NCBI GenBank assembly: GCA_030753015.1
Contig: JASMDC010000072.1
Coordinates: forward strand, 1 to 7,444
Length of the DNA stretch: 7,444 nt
Direction of reading: 5' to 3'
DNA from: Candidatus Undinarchaeales archaeon
Lineage (GTDB): Archaea > SpSt-1190 > JASMDC01
The position numbers and the translations under genes are program-made. The notes beneath the pieces are model-generated. The model was not told the origin of the DNA, did no database searches, and worked only from the letters and a program-made list of their open reading frames with translations. Shown in pieces: positions 177 to 7,444 of the stretch (its first letter is position 1; the number at the start of each line of letters is the position of its first letter).

Positions 177-722
177 TCAACTCGGCATCAGTACTTGTAT
201 TCGCTCCAGCAATGCCTCGTAGGTACGAAGGAGTCTCTCTGCCTCGGACGACCTCGACGATGGAACTAGGAGAACAGTACCCTTCTTGTACTTCGTAAGC
301 TTCGTGGATTCCAATGCACGATAGAACTTCTTCCTTCTAGTGGAATCGAGATGAGAAGTTCCATACCTCAATAGCACATAGGAAGCAAGTTGTTCGAACT
401 CCGGCCGTGCGCGTGATAATAAGACCTGCCCCTCGGCAGCGATCGCCATCCGTAATGATTCATCAACGTCCTTCCATGAGCGCGCGAAGAGAAAAGAGAA
501 CTCTCTTGTCATTTCCAATTTTTCATCAAGCTCATGTCGTACCTGTTCTGCACGCTCACGCACAGTATCTCCCTCACATTCACCCAGTACCAGGATATCA
601 ATGTCGCTTCTATCATCATGCTCGTCCCGAGCAAAGCTTCCAAAGAGGACAATAGTGATATCCGGATAATCCTTAACGATTGTCCGAGCGAGTTCACTCG
701 CTTGAATCGGGATCAATTCCAA
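177..722 (-). CDS. MNT-type nucleotidyltransferase, likely antitoxin of a HEPN/MNT module
   Basis: This 181-residue protein has the polymerase-beta-fold nucleotidyltransferase signature GSx10DxD: G28-S29, then D40 and D42, in the context VLFGSFARD and SDIDILV. Minimal nucleotidyltransferases paired with HEPN proteins are antitoxins; in the studied MntA-HepT systems they transfer AMP to the toxin. Residues 1-105 form that domain. Residues 106-181 add a basic tail rich in Arg, Lys and Tyr (for example YGTSHLDSTRRKKFYRAL) that I do not recognise, making the protein longer than minimal forms of roughly 100-140 residues. The start is TTG at 722, or TTG at 716; an AAGGAG ribosome site lies 4 or 10 bases before these. 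The gene overlaps the upstream HEPN gene by 29 bp, so the two are probably co-transcribed and translationally coupled. Stop is TGA. Confidence 0.85.
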   Translation of the reverse strand: MELIPIQASELARTIVKDYPDITIVLFGSFARDEHDDRSDIDILVLGECEGDTVRERAEQVRHELDEKLEMTREFSFLFARSWKDVDESLRMAIAAEGQVLLSRARPEFEQLASYVLLRYGTSHLDSTRRKKFYRALESTKLTKYKKGTVLLVPSSRSSEAERLLRTYEALLERIQVLMPS

Positions 723-1065
723 TCAACTCCTTGATCTTTGTAAGAATCTCCTCTGCGCGCTCCAAATCACGAACATCTTCTCGAGAGCCATAGACGACGG
801 CTCCGCGCAGGTCCTTGAGCCTGCTGTATATATTCGCAAGTTCCTCAGGATTCTCGAATGCTTCCGGATGGCTTCTTACGAACCGCTCAATCCTATTGAG
901 ATTCTGTTCATGAAGACCAAAGCGCGCTGCACGGGCATTGATCAAATGACCTGCTCCAGCACGGTAATCATCCATTATCGACTCGATCACATCCTCCTTG
1001 GATGGATGATCCAACATCGCCCGACGACGAGAAAGGTATTTCTGAATATGCACGTCGTCTTTCAT
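694..1065 (-). CDS. HEPN-like protein, likely toxin of the HEPN/MNT module
   Basis: This is a 123-residue, largely helical and charged protein just upstream of, and overlapping, the MNT nucleotidyltransferase. Residues 77-115 have the pattern of HEPN family C-termini: helix, then LRGAVVYGS with R87 and Y92, then a segment in which Ala-Glu-Glu begins a final helix (RAEEILTKIKELIGI). Canonical HEPN toxins have Rx4-6H; here the position is Rx4Y, as in the branch of HEPN proteins with an R-x-x-x-D/V-Y-G motif, so RNase activity cannot be taken for granted. In MntA-HepT pairs a tyrosine near this motif is the AMPylation target, which makes Y92 an obvious candidate (inference). The start is ATG 1065, 2 bp from a palindromic operator, so the mRNA is probably leaderless and autoregulated. 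Stop is TGA. Confidence 0.75.
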   Translation of the reverse strand: MKDDVHIQKYLSRRRAMLDHPSKEDVIESIMDDYRAGAGHLINARAARFGLHEQNLNRIERFVRSHPEAFENPEELANIYSRLKDLRGAVVYGSREDVRDLERAEEILTKIKELIGIDPDSSE

Positions 1066-1174: not shown

Positions 1175-1316
1175 GTACAACATCCGGGTTTCCGGCTCCG
1201 GACCTTCGTTCCCTCGGCCCTCCGCCCACACGCCCCCAAAAGCCATAACCTCGCCGACATGAACTTCGCTTGGAATCGCTTGCAGGGGCGCGCTCGGAAG
1301 CCCTCTACCGTTATCA
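1175..1316. repeat. Repeat B: attC-like site between modules 1 and 2
   Basis: The left core is GTACAAC (1175-1181) and the right core GTTATCA (1310-1316). The outer stem is GGGTTTCC (1186-1193) with GGAAGCCC (1296-1303), one G-T pair. The inner stem is CGCCCC (1231-1236) with GGGGCG (1285-1290). The terminal loop carries the conserved motif at 1261-1280 (GAACTTCGC and GGAATCGCT). The right end, 1310-1325, is complementary at 15 of 16 bases to 2234-2249 at the start of repeat C. Confidence 0.75.
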
Positions 1317-1342
1317 GACAGGGCGTAATAGTATTGATTCAA

Positions 1343-1828
1343 TTACTGTAACAGCTGTTTCTCCTTACTGCTTGAGAACTTATACCGGTCCTTCTTCTCC
1401 AACTCGATGATGATCTCTTTAATTTCTTGATTATTCAATACCTGCGTGCGTTTCAATGCAAGCATGATCTCATGCAGGGCATAGGATTCGATATCGTACT
1501 CCCGCTCGGCCACCTTCAATAACCTTCCATCATCAGAGAACAGGGTACAATCGTTGTCCTGACAGGCGACGAGCAGCTCGCAATCAACAAGGCTCAGGTA
1601 AGGAAAAGACCGTTGAATAATACTTGCCCGGATATAATCAACGTCGTCCAATACTCGCAGTCATTTTCTCAATGCCTTTGTTAATGGATGAATTATCTCT
1701 TCATTCTCCGATTCAATCAACTCGTTGATCACCGGGCTCGTGGTATAGATCTCATCGAACTCGAGGAGAAGTTACAACCTACGGATCTTTGAAAGAGAGC
1801 TCAGGATACAGGCATCGACTATGATCAC
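1343..1828 (-). pseudogene. PIN-domain ribonuclease toxin (VapC-like), broken by two in-frame stops
   Basis: Read from GTG 1828, the single frame of 161 codons encodes a PIN protein: VIIVDAC with D5, SPVINEL with E36, LSLVDCELL with D82, and LFSDDG with D99/D100, the acidic residues expected of this Mg-dependent RNase fold. The C-terminal ILNNQEIKEIIIELE-type tail resembles the archaeal DUF3368 branch. The frame is interrupted by TAA at codon 19 (1772-1774) and TGA at codon 56 (1661-1663), with no frameshift. The start overlaps nothing but follows the antitoxin stop by only 4 bases, so the gene was an operon partner of it. The fragment after the second stop (1343-1651) could start at TTG 1651 but would lack the first catalytic residues. 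Either stop would arise by one substitution, for instance CAA to TAA and CGA to TGA. Confidence 0.85.
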
Positions 1829-1832
1829 GATA

Positions 1833-2171
1833 TCAGCTCTTCTTCTTCCTCTTCTTGACGATCATTCCCTCCAGGCTGCTCGTATCCTTACTGTCTCCTT
1901 CCCTGCCGCGTTGAAGGATGCCCTCATCGATGAGGATGGATTTCATGTCCTCAAAGGATACTCCTGCGATCTCGGCCGCGCGGGAGATGGTGATCCCTTT
2001 GTTCTTGTACATGCGGATCGCGACGACCAGGCGCTCCTTGGGGCGGTGCATGAGGAACATGCGGATGGCTTCGCGGATCAGCTCGGACCGGTTATCGTAA
2101 TACCCTTCTTTGATGAAACCATCGATCTCTTCGCCCATTTTCGCAGGAATTGTAATTGAAACCACGACCAT
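1833..2171 (-). CDS. Ribbon-helix-helix antitoxin with UPF0175-like C-terminus (VapB-like)
   Basis: This protein is 112 residues from ATG 2171 (GTG 2174 would add one). Residues 2-45 form a CopG-type ribbon-helix-helix DNA-binding domain: a beta strand VVSITIPAKM, then helices EEIDGFIKEGYYDNRSEL and REAIRMFL, with the N-R-S-E-L-I-R-E-A-I pattern typical of archaeal members. Residues about 48-85 (VVAIRMYKNKGITISRAAEI then AGVSFEDMKSIL) resemble the UPF0175 antitoxin fold. The tail is basic (KKRKKK). Such fusions usually pair with PIN toxins of the DUF3368 type, which agrees with the broken PIN gene 4 bp downstream. It likely binds the inverted repeat at 2201-2231 to repress its own operon. Intact, stop TGA. 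Confidence 0.88.
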   Translation of the reverse strand: MVVVSITIPAKMGEEIDGFIKEGYYDNRSELIREAIRMFLMHRPKERLVVAIRMYKNKGITISRAAEIAGVSFEDMKSILIDEGILQRGREGDSKDTSSLEGMIVKKRKKKS

Positions 2172-2200
2172 CACCAGAGTTCTTTTATACGATATCTATA

Positions 2201-2231
2201 GTATCAAGTATTATTTATAGTTATTTGATAC
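2201..2231 (-). promoter_or_regulatory. Promoter and operator of the antitoxin/PIN operon
   Basis: The 7-bp inverted repeat GTATCAA (2201-2207) and TTGATAC (2225-2231), with a 17-bp spacer, surrounds a minus-strand TATA box CTATAAATA (2212-2220). The box lies about 45 bp before the start codon, giving a leader of about 20 bases. The half-site and wide spacing recall NikR-type ribbon-helix-helix operators (GTATGA-N16-TCATAC), fitting binding by the ribbon-helix-helix product itself. Confidence 0.6.
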
Positions 2232-2242
2232 GACGCCCTCTC

Positions 2243-2379
2243 TGATAACAACCGGGCTTGCGGCTCACTGAGCTGTGCTCGCTCGCCCACAGCCCTCCAA
2301 GGAGCAGACGATCTCCAGTCTTGAACTTCGCACACGAATCGCTAGTGGAGGGCCGACGCAAGCCACACAACACCTATAG
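2243..2379. repeat. Repeat C: attC-like site between modules 2 and 3
   Basis: The left core is TGATAAC (2243-2249). The outer stem is GGCTTGCG (2255-2262) with CGCAAGCC (2357-2364), perfect. The inner stem is GCCCTCCA (2292-2299) with TGGAGGGC (2346-2353), perfect. The conserved loop motif is at 2323-2343. The right core is decayed: CCTATAG (2373-2379), where the partner end of repeat D predicts GTTATAC. Positions 2323-2364 match repeat E 3892-3933 at 41 of 42 bases. Confidence 0.72.
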
Positions 2380-2420
2380 TTTAATACTAAAACTCAGAAT
2401 ACATCAAGTCATTCTCTTCA

Positions 2421-2681
2421 TTAGTTCTTCTTGAAAACCTTCTGACGTGTTTCCATCTTGATGATGAATACTTTCTGATGTGATTCGTCAACCTGATACA
2501 GAAAACGGAATTGTCCAATCCTTACCCGATACAGTCCTTTTTTACCCCGGATCTTCTTATAGGGGTATGAGAATGGATTTATCTTCATTTCATCGATAAT
2601 TTTTCGTAGCTTCTTCTTGTTGCCTTTCGGAAGAGATCCTGCTAATACAGCTGCCTTCTTCGAAAAGAGAACATCGAACAT
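2421..2681 (-). CDS. RelE/ParE-superfamily toxin
   Basis: This 86-residue protein matches the usual 80-95 residue RelE family. It has an N-terminal beta strand with KKA, two basic helices (residues about 10-33), the motif NPFSYPYKKIRGKKGLYRVRIGQFRFLYQV (given here only as landmark residues N36, P37, G45, Y50, R51, R53, G55, R58), and the C-terminal strand VFIIKMETRQKVFKK. Members are ribosome-dependent mRNA endonucleases or gyrase inhibitors; the GLYRVRIGQFRFLYQVD pattern followed by a basic C-terminus fits the archaeal RelE mRNase type. The start ATG overlaps the antitoxin stop (TAATG), a coupled antitoxin-first operon. The frame is complete, so this toxin appears functional. Stop TAA, 41 bp from the end of repeat C. 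Confidence 0.9.
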   Translation of the reverse strand: MFDVLFSKKAAVLAGSLPKGNKKKLRKIIDEMKINPFSYPYKKIRGKKGLYRVRIGQFRFLYQVDESHQKVFIIKMETRQKVFKKN

Positions 2682-2857
2682 TATCGATCTCCAAGAACCT
2701 CATCAGATGACACGAATTCTCCCGATGCGATTTCTTGCTGGATCGTTTCGACTTCCTCTTCCTCTCCAGGTTCGAGGTCTTCAAAACCAATGAAGTTATC
2801 GAGCTTTGAGTTTATCTCCATCAGCAATGACTCGATGTGATCTATCTTATCCATCAT
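2681..2857 (-). CDS. Small acidic antitoxin of the RelE toxin
   Basis: This protein is 58 residues from ATG 2857, or 57 from ATG 2854; GTG 2869 is also possible. A frame open to 3043 exists, but it would run through repeat D and the promoter, so I reject the long start. The N-terminal helix DHIESLLMEINSKLDNFIGF is amphipathic and probably dimerises. The acidic C-terminal part (EEEEVETIQQEIASGEFVS) ending in DEVLG would wrap the toxin, as known for archaeal RelB-like partners. It has no obvious DNA-binding domain. An AGGT sequence just before the two ATGs gives better spacing to ATG 2854. It is the first gene of the operon, overlapping relE-like 2421-2681 by 1 bp. Stop TAA. Confidence 0.8.
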   Translation of the reverse strand: MMDKIDHIESLLMEINSKLDNFIGFEDLEPGEEEEVETIQQEIASGEFVSSDEVLGDR

Positions 2858-2901
2858 GACCTGTGACACGACGACACCTATTGATAGATACCACGTCGCT
2901 G

Positions 2902-2940
2902 TATTTAATCCTTTCTTTCCAGAACCGCCTTTCTTTATAA
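2902..2940 (-). promoter_or_regulatory. Promoter region of module 3
   Basis: On the minus strand an ATTAAATA box (2902-2909) preceded by purine-rich GGAAAGAAAGG is about 45-50 bp before ATG 2857, implying a leader near 20 bases. A second AT-rich box, TTATAAAG (2933-2940), lies further upstream and could be an alternative. I see no palindrome as clear as those of modules 1, 2 and 5. Confidence 0.45.
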
Positions 2941-2954
2941 CGGATGTGGCCTGC

Positions 2955-3090
2955 GTATAACATTCACCCTCCCGGGTTCGCGCCTTCGGCGTTCCCCCAA
3001 CACGGCTCAGGATTACTGGTGCATTGATGTCTGAACCTCGCACGAAATCACTCTACTGAGCCGCCTCTAGGGAGGGCTCGACCGTTAGCT
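2955..3090. repeat. Repeat D: attC-like site between divergent modules 3 and 4
   Basis: The left core is GTATAAC (2955-2961) and the right core GTTAGCT (3084-3090). The outer stem is CCCTCCC (2967-2973) with GGGAGGG (3070-3076). The inner stem is CGGCTCAG (3003-3010) with CTGAGCCG (3056-3063), perfect over 8 bp. The conserved loop motif at 3033-3052 reads GAACCTCGC then GAAATCACT. The right end 3084-3100 is complementary at 15 of 17 bases to 3792-3808 at the left of repeat E. Confidence 0.75.
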
Positions 3091-3261
3091 GAAATTGCCG
3101 TATGCCGTTTTTCCAGTTTAATTCATATAAATCCCAATAATTGCCCCCGTTATCCAATTTCATACACGTCACACCCGTTTTATCAGTATTGAATCAAATT
3201 ATTTACCCCTCTAGCGAAATTAACGATGGGGGTTGTGAATTATAAAACTCCTTTGATAGAA

Positions 3262-3269
3262 ATATTTAT
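3262..3269 (+). promoter_or_regulatory. TATA-like box of module 4
   Basis: ATATTTAT lies about 30 bp before ATG 3296, preceded by GATAGAA, consistent with an archaeal promoter producing an almost leaderless mRNA. The stretch 3101-3255 between repeat D and this box holds no gene that I can see; it is AT-rich, with a short ACCCC/GGGGT inverted repeat near 3205-3235. Confidence 0.5.
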
Positions 3270-3295
3270 TTGAGGATGGCTACTCTAGAATAAGT

Positions 3296-3517
3296 ATGGC
3301 TCACACGGTCACGATAGAGGATGTCTATAAAGAACTGAAATTGCTTGAAGAGCGGATGGTGACTCATGAAGATATTGAAGCTCTTATCGAAACCGTGGAC
3401 ATTCTCAACAATCCTAAGACCGTGGAAGCCCTTCGCAAGAGTGATCAGGATATCAAAGCGGGAAGAGTAAAGGATGTGACGTCCGTCGATGACATGCTCA
3501 AAGAGTTGAACGCATGA
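3296..3517 (+). CDS. RelB-like antitoxin
   Basis: This 73-residue protein follows the archaeal RelB-like pattern: an N-terminal helical segment TIEDVYKELKLLEERMV then THEDIEALIETVDILNNP, and a C-terminal arm with DIKAGRVKDVTSVDDMLKEL that typically contacts the RelE toxin. It would neutralise the product of the next gene, with which it overlaps by 4 bp (ATGA), a coupled operon. The start ATG 3296 has no ribosome site upstream but sits at the right distance from a TATA-like box, so a leaderless message is likely. The antitoxin is intact although its toxin partner is interrupted. Stop TGA. It is not related in sequence to the antitoxin of module 3 beyond general RelB character. Confidence 0.87.
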   Translation: MAHTVTIEDVYKELKLLEERMVTHEDIEALIETVDILNNPKTVEALRKSDQDIKAGRVKDVTSVDDMLKELNA

Positions 3518-3777
3518 CTTGGATTGTCAAGAGAACTGACACATTCCTCGAGTCATTGAGTGATGTCGCCAAGAACAAGCAAGTCCTCAGGGACCTTCAG
3601 AAAAAGATTGACCGATTGCGCTAGAATCCTTTACATGTCGGGAAATGGCTCTCGGGGGAACTACACGGCAAGAAGTCTACACGACTCGCCAAGAAATACC
3701 GGCTAATTTTTACACCGATAAAGAGGAAGAATGTGGTGTATCTCAATTGGATAGACCATAGAGAAGCTGTCTATTAA
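3514..3777 (+). pseudogene. RelE-type toxin interrupted by an in-frame TAG
   Basis: The frame from ATG 3514 to TAA 3775-3777 has 87 codons and reads as a whole RelE protein: MTWIVKRTDTFLESL, a helical segment KNKQVLRDLQKKIDRL, then after the stop NPLHVGKWLSGELHGKKSTRL, KKYRLIFTPIKRKNVVYLNW and the end IDHREAVY with the characteristic D-H-R/E-Y finish. Codon 37 is TAG (3622-3624), between R36 and N38, a place where related proteins commonly have a polar residue such as Gln, Glu or Lys. One substitution, for example CAG to TAG, explains it, and no frameshift is present. A pyrrolysine codon is formally possible but unsupported. It overlaps the RelB-like gene by 4 bp; the stop is 24 bp before repeat E. 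Confidence 0.88.
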
Positions 3778-3801
3778 TTAGTAATAACTTACGACAACTT
3801 C

Positions 3802-3947
3802 AGCTAACAATCGGACTTCAGGGAAAGGAACGTCGTAGTCACTCCGCCCATTTCCCCACACGCCCCCGAGATCCAACAGCTCACCTGGTTTGAACTTCGC
3901 ACACGAATCGCTAGCGGAGGGCCGACGCAAGCCCTTTTCCGTTATGC
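3802..3947. repeat. Repeat E: attC-like site between modules 4 and 5
   Basis: The left core is AGCTAAC (3802-3808) and the right core GTTATGC (3941-3947). The inner stem is CTCCGC (3842-3847) with GCGGAG (3914-3919). The conserved loop motif is at 3892-3912. The outer stem is weak: the right arm CGCAAGCC is that of repeat C, but the left arm GGACTTCAGGG does not match it, hinting at a chimeric site. The right end starting at 3941 (GTTATGCGA) is complementary to 4655-4663 before repeat F. Confidence 0.73.
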
Positions 3948-3992
3948 GAACAGCGTATCTCGACGATATTATCTCCAGACAAAAGCGGTAAT

Positions 3993-4020
3993 CATATATA
4001 GTTATATGTACTTATATAAC
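3993..4020 (+). promoter_or_regulatory. Promoter and overlapping palindromes of module 5
   Basis: A CATATATA box (3993-4000) lies 23-30 bp before ATG 4023, fitting a leaderless transcript. Two inverted repeats overlap it: CATATA-TAGT-TATATG (3993-4008) and GTTATAT-GTACTT-ATATAAC (4001-4020). The second ends 2 bp before the start codon, where a repressor would block transcription initiation. The DNA-binding protein would plausibly be the first gene of the module. Confidence 0.6.
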
Positions 4021-4022
4021 TT

Positions 4023-4313
4023 ATGGTACAGGTTCAGAAAGAGATTAACAAATCCAAGGTCATTCATTTTCCTCGATTGGATACCGTTCTCATGGTTGAG
4101 GAATTTATCGAAGAACACTCAGGAGAGTATAAGAAAAAAGCGTTATGGGAACACCTTCCAAAGAAAATGATGTATCAAACCTATTCACTGATCCTGGATT
4201 ACCTCTCCAACTCAAACAAGATCGCTTATGATCAGGAAGGAAAGATAGCGTGGATCTGGAATCCTAAACTCGTCCAGTACTACCTTTCCAAGCCCGAGCT
4301 GATGGTGAGATGA
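4023..4313 (+). CDS. Winged-helix-like antitoxin
   Basis: This 96-residue protein resembles a family of small archaeal proteins that I recall next to RelE-like genes in methanogens, with landmarks HFPRLDTVLMVEEFI, a segment LPKKMMYQTYSLILDYL and the hairpin-like GKIAWIWNP. The order helix-helix-helix followed by a beta-hairpin (residues about 22-82) is that of a winged helix, which suggests DNA binding and repression of its own promoter at 3993-4020. The function as antitoxin is inferred from position: first gene, 4-bp overlap (ATGA) with a RelE-like gene, own promoter. There is no ribosome site before ATG 4023, agreeing with a leaderless mRNA. Stop TGA. Confidence 0.72.
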   Translation: MVQVQKEINKSKVIHFPRLDTVLMVEEFIEEHSGEYKKKALWEHLPKKMMYQTYSLILDYLSNSNKIAYDQEGKIAWIWNPKLVQYYLSKPELMVR

Positions 4314-4642
4314 CCGAGTTTCAAGTAGGATTCGCTGATGAGAAAATCCTCGAAGCTTTCAATAAACTGAAAGATTCTAAAGTAGAAGACAGGGATTTAC
4401 ATCGCTGGATAAGTAATGCAATTGACGATCTGAAAAAGAATCCCTCTTGCGGCGTCCAAATCAAAAAACGTCAAATACCGAGGACATACATAACGAAATA
4501 TCACGTTACCAATCTGTGGAAATATGACTTGCCCAATGCATGGAGATTGATCTACTTCGTTATTGGTGATCAAGTTAATATCATTTCAATCGTTCTTGAA
4601 TGGATGGACCATAAAGACTACGAGAGACGTTTTAAGTACTAA
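4310..4642 (+). CDS. RelE-superfamily toxin partner of the winged-helix protein
   Basis: This 110-residue protein is a longer RelE-like member. It has N-terminal helices (residues about 9-45, ILEAFNKLKD and HRWISNAIDDLKKNP), a basic middle VQIKKRQIPRTYITKY, then the RelE core LPNAWRLIYFVIGDQVNIISIVLEWMDHKDYERRF with the R-L-I-Y strand and the final D-H-K-x-Y-E-R motif (landmarks W88-98 region). Related proteins act as mRNA-cleaving or ribosome-directed toxins. It overlaps the preceding gene by 4 bp and ends with TAA 14 bp before repeat F. The frame is complete. The different partner and the roughly 20 extra residues separate it from the two other RelE proteins here, so the three modules are not recent duplicates. 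Confidence 0.82.
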   Translation: MTEFQVGFADEKILEAFNKLKDSKVEDRDLHRWISNAIDDLKKNPSCGVQIKKRQIPRTYITKYHVTNLWKYDLPNAWRLIYFVIGDQVNIISIVLEWMDHKDYERRFKY

Positions 4643-4656
4643 TAAGTTACGCCGTC

Positions 4657-4792
4657 GCATAACATAAGTGCATCCGGCTCCGGCCCTTGCGGCCCTCCAC
4701 GAACACGCCGACAATCGTTAGGGCCTTGACGATCCGAACCTCGCCAGAAATCGCTACACGTCGGCGCGTCGGATGGCACCCAGCCGTTTGGC
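4657..4792. repeat. Repeat F: attC-like site at the right end of the array
   Basis: The left core is GCATAAC (4657-4663) and the right core GTTTGGC (4786-4792). The outer stem is GTGC-ATCCG (4668-4676) with CGGAT-G-GCAC (4770-4779), leaving one extrahelical G at 4775, a hallmark of attC hairpins. The inner stem is CGCCGAC (4706-4712) with GTCGGCG (4760-4766), perfect. A small extra stem ATCGT/ACGAT lies at the loop base. The conserved loop motif is at 4736-4755. No further repeat follows to the right. Confidence 0.75.
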
Positions 4793-5053: not shown

Positions 5054-7186
5054 ATGATAATGAATCGCTTGTTCGATGGCCTTTTCATTTGTGTTCTTCT
5101 TCTCGTGTTCATCGATACTACCATCCTCTGCAGCTCATTCATCAGCTATCCCGGCCTCGACAATCTTAGCAGCACCACGCTTCACCTGAGCACCCTCGGT
5201 TCACTGAACAAACGGGGTGTTGCTGGAGCAGATCCCATCTACGCTGATGAGCAACACGATTATCCCTGGTTGCACCAACTCATTCAGGTTCTTGTCATCA
5301 AGGTCACGTCACTTCCCCCCGGTACCGTCTATATCATGTGGCCACTGTTCCAATTGTTCCTTATCGTAACGGGAGCATACGGAATAGGCAAGGCGTTGAT
5401 CGGTGGTAATGGGGGACAATGGGTTGTCCTTTTTTCAATCATCATCAGATCGACGAAGCGGGTCATGTTCCTGTCGTGGCCCCTCTATACCTCGTTCGGC
5501 CTGGTCTATCTACTGATCCTTTTCGTCTCATGGTATTCGATACGGAGAAAGATGTCGTACTTGGTGATCGGAGGTTGCCTTCTGGGTCTTATCTTCATGA
5601 CACACATTAATACGTTCGTGGCCTGCGCATTATTGCCTTTACTTGCGCTGCTATTTGGAAATCCCGATGGCCGAACAATAAGAAGAAGGCTCATCGAGAT
5701 CGGGATCCTTTATTTCATCGCATTTCTTGTCAGCTCGGCTTACTGGTATCCACTTTTCGAGAATTATCGGTTCAAGATACAGTCGGCGACCCAGGAATTC
5801 GTTTACTTCGATATGAAATTATATCCATGGCCTCAATATTCAACCCCTGCACAGATCGCTGACATGGTCCTGAATCGGGTCACAAGCGAGGTGGAAGGTC
5901 GCGAGAATAGTTGCAGTGCGAACAATGCGCTGGTCTTCCTCTTTGCGATCTCGGGTCTTATTTTGGTCGGAAGGAACAGGTCCATTGGAAATCGGCTCAT
6001 TCTCATTGTTTTCATTACCTTCTTATTGGCAAGATTACATCATATCATTCTCTATCCCTTGATCTCATTTCGATTACAATTCTTCAGATTCTCCGATTAC
6101 CTGGAGATCTCATATGCGATCCTCGCGGGATTGAGCATGACTTCAATAGACAGGCTATCGAGAATCCATTGGAGACCGATCTTCCCTACCCTATTCCTGA
6201 TCCTTCTTGCCTGCTTCCATTTCAGTTCGACACACTATGCGATACAAATGAACGAGGCCATTCAAAGTGGAAGAGGGAACGACTGGGGAATAATCTCCAA
6301 GGACAATGGGCGCATGATGGCTATCGATAACGGATCAAGATTCGCCTGTTTCTTCAAGGCTTCACAAACATTGTACAACACGGATGGTGTTATCAATACT
6401 GATCCTTATTACTCTCAACTCCTCAATATAATGAATCAAGGTGAATACCTTGCCGGTCCAAAAGGCTATTCGAATATCTTTGTTGATGTCGGCCTGCGCG
6501 AACGTCTATCGAGATACATCTATTATGGCGTGCAAAGTGCGGGGTTCCAGTCACTTTTCAGCCATTATAATATTACACATGTAGTTGTTGACCCTTACAA
6601 TTTCAATAAATGGCCCTTAGGAATGACCAAGTTCAGGTCTCCACTCTTTGAAAAAACGATCGAATGCTGGCAAGATGATCTGCCATCTCCTACTGGCGAT
6701 ACAATAAGCGGACCCGTTATCGTCTACAAGGTCAATCAAACGTACATGCAAGGAGCACCCCGCCCGTTGGACACGTTCCTGTCCTGTTATTATGCGATCC
6801 CGCTTTCTACAGAGGTATCGTATGCGCTATACGATGTAGAGGACGTTCGCGAGAAGGCAAGGAAGCATGGATTGATCCTTGTCCATGGTGAAGGAAGATC
6901 ATTCGACTCATCTCAAGCCCAGAGGATCGCCCAGCATTTCGCAAACTCATTTGTCACGGATGATTACCGATATGAGGGCAAGAAAGGTGATGAGATAACG
7001 ATCTTCATTGGAGGCCCTGCTACGAACGACTATATCGCGGCACTATCATTCGAAGAGCTTACCGTTCTTTATCACTCTCCATTCGATCACTCTTGCATAT
7101 TCCTTCATGGGAACGACCTTATAGTGGGTGGATATAAAGAACGATCCACTAGAGACGCGGTCAATCTATTCCTTTCATTAGAATGA
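5054..7186 (+). CDS. Multi-pass membrane protein, GT-C-like, with large C-terminal domain; function unknown
   Basis: This is a 710-residue protein. The N-terminal half has about ten hydrophobic segments, roughly at residues 7-30, 92-112, 123-140, 143-163, 167-201, 213-232, 291-306, 313-328, 350-362 and 376-392. The rest (395-710) is soluble, probably outside the membrane. The first large loop (31-75) holds acidic and aromatic residues (LDN at 35-37, DEQHDYPW at 65-72), as in the first extracytoplasmic loop of GT-C glycosyltransferases using lipid-linked sugars. The FRLQFFRFSDYLEISYAILAG stretch resembles archaeal membrane proteins annotated as PTPS-related; here I see no direct catalytic proof. 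ATG 5054 follows a TATA-like box at about 20 bp, so a leaderless mRNA is likely; ATG 5060 is the alternative. It is unlike the TA modules in size and in lacking flanking repeats, so it probably belongs to the host chromosome. Confidence 0.72.
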   Translation: MIMNRLFDGLFICVLLLVFIDTTILCSSFISYPGLDNLSSTTLHLSTLGSLNKRGVAGADPIYADEQHDYPWLHQLIQVLVIKVTSLPPGTVYIMWPLFQLFLIVTGAYGIGKALIGGNGGQWVVLFSIIIRSTKRVMFLSWPLYTSFGLVYLLILFVSWYSIRRKMSYLVIGGCLLGLIFMTHINTFVACALLPLLALLFGNPDGRTIRRRLIEIGILYFIAFLVSSAYWYPLFENYRFKIQSATQEFVYFDMKLYPWPQYSTPAQIADMVLNRVTSEVEGRENSCSANNALVFLFAISGLILVGRNRSIGNRLILIVFITFLLARLHHIILYPLISFRLQFFRFSDYLEISYAILAGLSMTSIDRLSRIHWRPIFPTLFLILLACFHFSSTHYAIQMNEAIQSGRGNDWGIISKDNGRMMAIDNGSRFACFFKASQTLYNTDGVINTDPYYSQLLNIMNQGEYLAGPKGYSNIFVDVGLRERLSRYIYYGVQSAGFQSLFSHYNITHVVVDPYNFNKWPLGMTKFRSPLFEKTIECWQDDLPSPTGDTISGPVIVYKVNQTYMQGAPRPLDTFLSCYYAIPLSTEVSYALYDVEDVREKARKHGLILVHGEGRSFDSSQAQRIAQHFANSFVTDDYRYEGKKGDEITIFIGGPATNDYIAALSFEELTVLYHSPFDHSCIFLHGNDLIVGGYKERSTRDAVNLFLSLE

Positions 7187-7444
7187 GAACATACCGGATT
7201 TCCGTTCCACTTTCTTCCTTTCCCGATCATTATCGTCCCAATCTCAAGCCCAGGACGGGATTCCAATATCTTCCCTACAAGCCGTAGGGATATACCTGAC
7301 CGACATCCGATAACAGTGGGTTATCTGACGTCGCTTTTTCCTTCCAGATGACTGTAAGAGGCACACATACGTTGTCGCCCCCTCAGCCTGAATAACGCCC
7401 ATGTGGATATCCGAATTACCGAATTTCCACCACGACGCGATAAT
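7187..7444. other. Downstream non-coding stretch with two small hairpins
   Basis: No gene with a start is visible. A pyrimidine-rich run (7197-7217) follows the stop codon. Hairpins CCCTAC-N5-GTAGGG (7273-7289) and GATAAC-N5-GTTATC (7309-7325) are followed by a T run at 7336-7340, together a possible archaeal termination region. Two minus-strand frames stay open from the right edge for 50-65 codons, but neither shows a recognisable domain, so I do not call a gene. Confidence 0.3.

Follow-up and report, generated by a model that had tools for sequence, protein, structure and literature searches.

The DNA analysed here (the window) is the entire contig C87, 7,444 bp long, of the archaeal MAG G000, and it very probably belongs to a larger cassette array of integron type, located in the chromosome of an archaeon, in which the cassettes are mobile and moved by a tyrosine recombinase. 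By the usual definition the array is a CALIN, that is, a cluster of attC sites without intI, because no IntI-type integrase was found anywhere in the assembly. The integron reading of the original prediction is supported by the varied genes between sites, by the complementarity of cassette starts and ends and by the core-exact boundary of a cassette that was found twice. G000 comprises 3.85 Mb in 117 contigs, is 98.9% complete and has an estimated contamination of 5.0%. The DNA is archaeal, as had seemed apparent from the letters, because the genome has four TATA-binding protein (TBP) genes, one of them within a cassette array; among the control genomes the TBP family matched only archaeal ones.

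Sites and genes of the window

The five repeats that had been described from the letters alone, of 136-146 bp and with AAC cores, were confirmed as follows:

1175-1316, minus strand: attC-like site B, 142 bp; R'' GTACAAC and R' GTTATCA in plus orientation
2243-2378, minus strand: attC-like site C, 136 bp; GTT core lost
2955-3090, minus strand: attC-like site D, 136 bp
3802-3947, minus strand: attC-like site E, 146 bp
4657-4792, minus strand: attC-like site F, 136 bp

The AAC core is present in all five sites and, as predicted, the terminal GTT in B, D, E and F, having been lost in C. The covariance model of the sites was built on the minus strand. The consensus fold, on the strand complementary to plus, takes the form of a long, bent hairpin with 32 pairs, made of the R pairing, an unpaired spacer, the L stem and a long inner stem, and 14 of the 32 pairs have at least one two-sided compensatory change. 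In this sense, size, cores and folding fit attC sites, as had been proposed. For a CALIN, two attC sites within 4 kb of each other suffice, and five are found at 1175-4792, with RYYYAAC...GTTRRRY cores (site C without GTT) and an inner L stem. A generic attC descriptor (RYYYAAC and GTTRRRY cores plus L stem), not trained on these sites, scored at least 15 at 20 of the 21 scorable sites against 10.9% of the 2,256 candidates in the background. Restricted to the window, its result is no more than suggestive, not being significant against shuffles. No match over the gathering score came from an Rfam scan of the window, and an attC pattern search in the genome contigs collection found no match.

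Sites B-F lie within the extent first given for the array, 1175-4792, but the array continues past 4792 to an X-type site at the contig end. The other features of the window are:

177-722, minus strand: MntA-like nucleotidyltransferase (MNT)
694-1065, minus strand: short partner gene of the nucleotidyltransferase, probably HEPN
1310-2249: cassette B-C, start GTTATCAGACAGGGCGT complementary to end ACGCCCTCTCTGATAAC (16/17); ribbon-helix-helix antitoxin and decayed PIN toxin
1343-1828, minus strand: PIN-like toxin frame, recognized by eye; two in-frame stops at about 1772-1774 and 1661-1663
1833-2174, minus strand: ribbon-helix-helix antitoxin with a UPF0175-like part (PF01402, PF03683)
2421-2681, minus strand: ParE/YoeB-like toxin of cassette C-D
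2681-2860, minus strand: putative antitoxin partner in cassette C-D, no family match
3084-3808: cassette D-E, start GTTAGCTGAAATTGCCGTA complementary to end (18/22)
3296-3517, plus strand: antitoxin of cassette D-E, with a 70% identical homologue in another archaeal genome (locus L089)
3514-3777, plus strand: RelE-like toxin frame of cassette D-E, in-frame TAG at 3622
3941-4663: cassette E-F, start GTTATGCGA..GCGTA complementary to end
4023-4313, plus strand: putative antitoxin of cassette E-F, kept together with the following gene in eight or more other archaeal genomes
4310-4642, plus strand: YoeB/RelE-like toxin of cassette E-F, completing an intact pair
5054-7186, plus strand: ORF of a 710-aa membrane protein, between F and X
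7308-7444, minus strand: platform site of type X, truncated where the contig ends

Toxin-antitoxin (TA) modules do stand between the repeats, as had been stated, but two of the four toxin frames are broken and no TA module is found in the final segment. At least two toxins in the window are thus decayed: the PIN-like frame, which gave no Pfam or NCBIfam match, and the RelE-like frame of cassette D-E, whose L089 homologue is an open frame. Pyrrolysine recoding of the TAG at 3622 was considered and rejected, no PylS having been found in the genome and a decayed toxin being the simpler explanation. The antitoxin and YoeB-like toxin at 4023-4642 form a conserved unnamed archaeal TA operon occurring in many small genomes. 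A toxin query against viral contigs gave no match. The segment from F to X is not a simple cassette, because its ends are not complementary.

Whether the nucleotidyltransferase pair at 177-1065 is a cassette is uncertain. Such MNT pairs, with a HEPN-like partner, occur in four separate cassettes or platforms of this genome (L107, L110, L042 5278-6637 and the window at 177-1065). A palindrome of the TGACACAnnTGTGTCA type is found four times, twice on each side of this operon (102-118, 141-157, 1067-1083 and 1106-1122), the members of each pair standing 38-39 bp apart; its presence at both operon ends is unusual, and these palindromes are likely operators. Positions 1-78 are a repeat shared with the start of contig C82 (L042 1-78, 98.7%) and with C29 (L072 154-232, 90%), which looks like the right end, or omega-RNA, of an IS200/IS605 TnpB element. 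The window and C82 both begin exactly in this repeat, and the contigs break there.

Cassette boundaries and platforms across the genome

A covariance model made from sites B-F alone (R1) found 20 further sites in the genome (E 1e-25 to 0.02), 25 in total, on contigs C87, C53, C82, C29, C26, C23, C70 and C24. Confinement of the repeats to fixed gene sets, which the original prediction had named as speaking against it, was not seen: at about ten places of the genome, as in a CALIN, they surround different genes, which include TA pairs, cupins, a MerR/GyrI-like regulator, a PKD lipoprotein, an F420-dependent reductase-like protein and nucleotidyltransferase pairs. A search of related archaeal genomes had been suggested; among 394 archaeal genomes, R1 detected attC-like sites in six others (G064, G182, G155, G253, G156 and G163); those inspected in G182, G155 and G156 are compact AAC...GTT hairpins. 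One locus of G156 (L115), with three attC-like hairpins in 2.3 kb, is probably another archaeal cassette array. At nine loci examined that hold DNA-level relatives of the E-F pair, R1 found no site.

In integrons the crossover lies inside the GTT core, and the hairpin formed by the end of a cassette is completed by the first bases of that same cassette. The expectation for adjacent sites is therefore start/end complementarity within one cassette. We found this behavior over 17 adjacent pairs of R1 sites from G000 and G064 taken together, where cassette starts are complementary to their own ends and not to those of the neighbour (sum 166 against 95.5 +/- 7.6 when permuted; 0 of 20,000 permutations). 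As in a CALIN, R'' of a site complements the beginning of the cassette that it belongs to. With the X and Y ends described below added, the sum was 267 against 143.6 +/- 9.0 (0 of 50,000 permutations), with 19 of the 26 pairs in first rank among 31. The choice of Y cores was made by eye for C11 and C62, which makes those two weaker; the 17-pair test is free of that choice. The complementarity is still significant past the first nine bases (142 against 101 +/- 5.8). Between a site and the opposite end of its module it reaches 15-19 bp, often longer than the 10-12 bp of three class 1 integron cassettes taken as controls. The pairs F-X, C-D and two in C82/C24 failed the test, and in C-D, site C is without its core.

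Comparison of the array loci also disclosed a site, X, with two inverted core pairs, one extra base and, in the fitted structure, an L stem of 11 pairs. Model R2 found nine copies in the genome, and every copy with flanks marks a step from GC-rich host DNA (about 0.62) to low-GC cargo (about 0.44); an outer flank of about 75 bp with a hairpin is common to eight of them. A second site, Y, is conserved at the far end of several arrays (twice on C73 and on C29, with related forms on C11, C62, C53 and C23). Y is longer than X and non-palindromic, whereas X is a classic hairpin of two simple sites. Cassettes that run from X to Y again have complementary ends. Altogether, the GC-rich chromosome holds at least nine low-GC cassette stretches, most of them bounded by X and Y, and about 34 sites on some 13 contigs. 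As to which of X and Y serves as attI, the evidence from spacer lengths and extra-helical bases is divided.

One cassette, on C53, carries a TBP gene (PF00352, 1.6e-53). A copy with 88% DNA identity on C44 begins together with it at the core CTGTTATG (the GTT core); an X site precedes the C44 copy and an attC-like site the C53 copy. This shared start is the boundary expected of an integron. The C44 copy is cut by a segment with ACCCATCGTCGGCACCC inverted repeats (L059, about 998-1540), which looks like a MITE or an IS remnant. The sole match of the TBP query in the genome contigs collection is from Pacearchaeota (43%). The literature search found no paper joining integron, attC and TATA-binding protein.

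These boundaries weigh against other explanations of the repeats. The repeats could be fixed features, acting as intrinsic terminators or insulators that separate TA modules of independent acquisition, with no recombination; the hairpins do stand between genes and gene orientation is mixed, but terminators need neither AAC/GTT cores, nor the complementarity to the far end of the module, nor a matching cassette boundary at two loci, and we consider this explanation extremely improbable. Somewhat less remote, and still unlikely, is that the units of X, cargo and Y are mini-transposons, MITE-like and served by a transposase in trans, the internal repeats being passenger structures. X and Y are repeated at no fewer than nine chromosomal sites with conserved outer flanks, no integrase adjoins them, and IS and TnpB elements are common nearby. 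Outer ends, however, leave unexplained both the tandem arrays with internal sites and the cassette-specific start/end complementarity, and the shared start of the two TBP copies is an internal core and not an outer end. The platforms themselves may have been copied by a transposon, which may be an addition to the integron reading rather than its rival.

Misbinning of a bacterial cassette array into the archaeal genome would be conceivable for a contig of just 7.4 kb in a MAG with 5% contamination, integrons being chiefly bacterial. Yet the same sites lie within long contigs (C29, 229 kb; C73 and C62, 148 kb; C95, 127 kb) where GC-rich host DNA flanks them, one cassette encodes an archaeal TBP, and DNA-level homologues of the E-F TA pair were found in other archaea, so we regard this origin as very unlikely.

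Recombinases and proposed mechanism

The window contains no integrase, as had been noted. The proposed search for a tyrosine recombinase with the IntI-specific domain found none of IntI type in the assembly (TIGR02249 and PF00589 searches), which is 98.9% complete and may lack IntI; among the 394 archaeal genomes none was found at E 1e-45, a threshold at which no controls matched either. Of the tyrosine recombinase genes of the genome, two intact ones lie in tandem on C31 and a TAG-stopped copy lies on C76; C53 has a gene with an internal deletion and C88 a fragment. The C53 gene, which lies beside an array, was considered as IntI and rejected, being an internally deleted Xer-like gene. The intact recombinases are XerA/IntI-like, without the IntI domain and with an extra N-terminal domain. 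The C31 protein passes the XerA_Arch cut-off (224.7 bits against 220) and fails that of IntI (220 against 265); its closest PDB relative is Vibrio IntI4 (2a3v), and at the place of the IntI-specific domain it is about 40 residues shorter, with 23 against about 65 in IntI4.

The tandem C31 genes sit at a contig end (L009 1-2571), and over 346 bp the upstream regions of the first of them and of the C76 copy share 81% identity. A 21-bp platform-end motif has exact matches only at the end of the C11 array and in the upstream regions of the recombinase genes of C31 and C76; looser matches lie inside two X sites and near the C24 array, and the reversed motif, used as a control, had no matches in the genome. 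The motif links the platform ends to the C31 and C76 recombinases, a link that does not by itself prove function. Where an integron has attI next to intI, what is seen here are the boundary sites X and Y and this motif upstream of the recombinase genes.

We propose that each module would be a mobile cassette, a circle with a TA pair and a single folded attC-like site, the outer core of which would pair with the other end of the same cassette. A tyrosine recombinase would insert and remove cassettes at the GTT/AAC cores, in arrays that would sit in chromosomal platforms bounded by X and Y. The enzyme most likely belongs to the XerA/IntI-like family of C31 and C76; the recombination itself, the single-strand folding as its substrate and the end that serves as entry point are inferred. 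The TA genes probably stabilize the arrays, as in bacterial superintegrons. More tentatively, we suggest as a possibility short of even likelihood that this is an archaeal integron lineage with many small chromosomal X/Y platforms, in which XerA-like recombinases without the IntI domain act in trans and shuffle core genes such as TBP with TA modules. If true, the sites, platform ends and TBP cassette would imply that archaea run cassette exchange themselves and that this exchange reaches the basal transcription machinery. Furthermore, if the enzyme works without the IntI domain, it could be tested directly which features turn a recombinase into an integron integrase.

Comparison with known integrons

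Integrons are gene-capture platforms, best known for antibiotic-resistance genes in bacteria. Until 2022 they were regarded as bacterial, and most of the archaeal examples are short orphan arrays. The sedentary chromosomal superintegrons of Vibrio have long structured attC sites and many TA cassettes, as found here, but there one large array per chromosome lies beside intIA, whereas here the arrays are many and small. With class 1 integrons (control loci L067 and L069-L071) the array shares the complementary cassette ends and the architecture of core and L stem. It differs in the length of its sites (136-149 bp against 60-112), in cassettes that probably have their own promoters and in having neither IntI nor a single attI; R1 gave no matches to class 1 attC sites, which have no sequence similarity by this model, so that sequence gives no support for placing the sites in one family with them. 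Among tyrosine recombinases, the C31 protein resembles archaeal XerA by its score and IntI by its best PDB match, and departs from IntI in lacking the length of the specific domain, in its extra N-terminal domain and in falling under the IntI cut-off.

A study of 2022 already described archaeal integrons, CALINs and cassettes with TA modules (Ghaly et al. 2022, PMC9668308), with TA systems among the commonest cassettes and most arrays without IntI. In that study, archaeal IntIs have the extra domain and cassette genes are generally in one orientation (PMC9668308). The novelty that had been seen in an archaeal array of TA cassettes is lowered by this, and the window alone is a new member of a known archaeal kind, sharing with those arrays the attC-like AAC/GTT hairpins between short ORFs in archaeal MAGs; the wider genome adds features that could not be seen from the window. 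In contrast to the published cases, a single genome here repeats a conserved platform site, X, at least nine times and also has a recurrent second boundary site, Y, its cassette genes lie in either orientation, one cassette carries TBP, and the only recombinases found are without the extra IntI domain. New with respect to the literature searched are therefore the repeated X/Y platforms without IntI, the TBP cassette and the mixed orientation.
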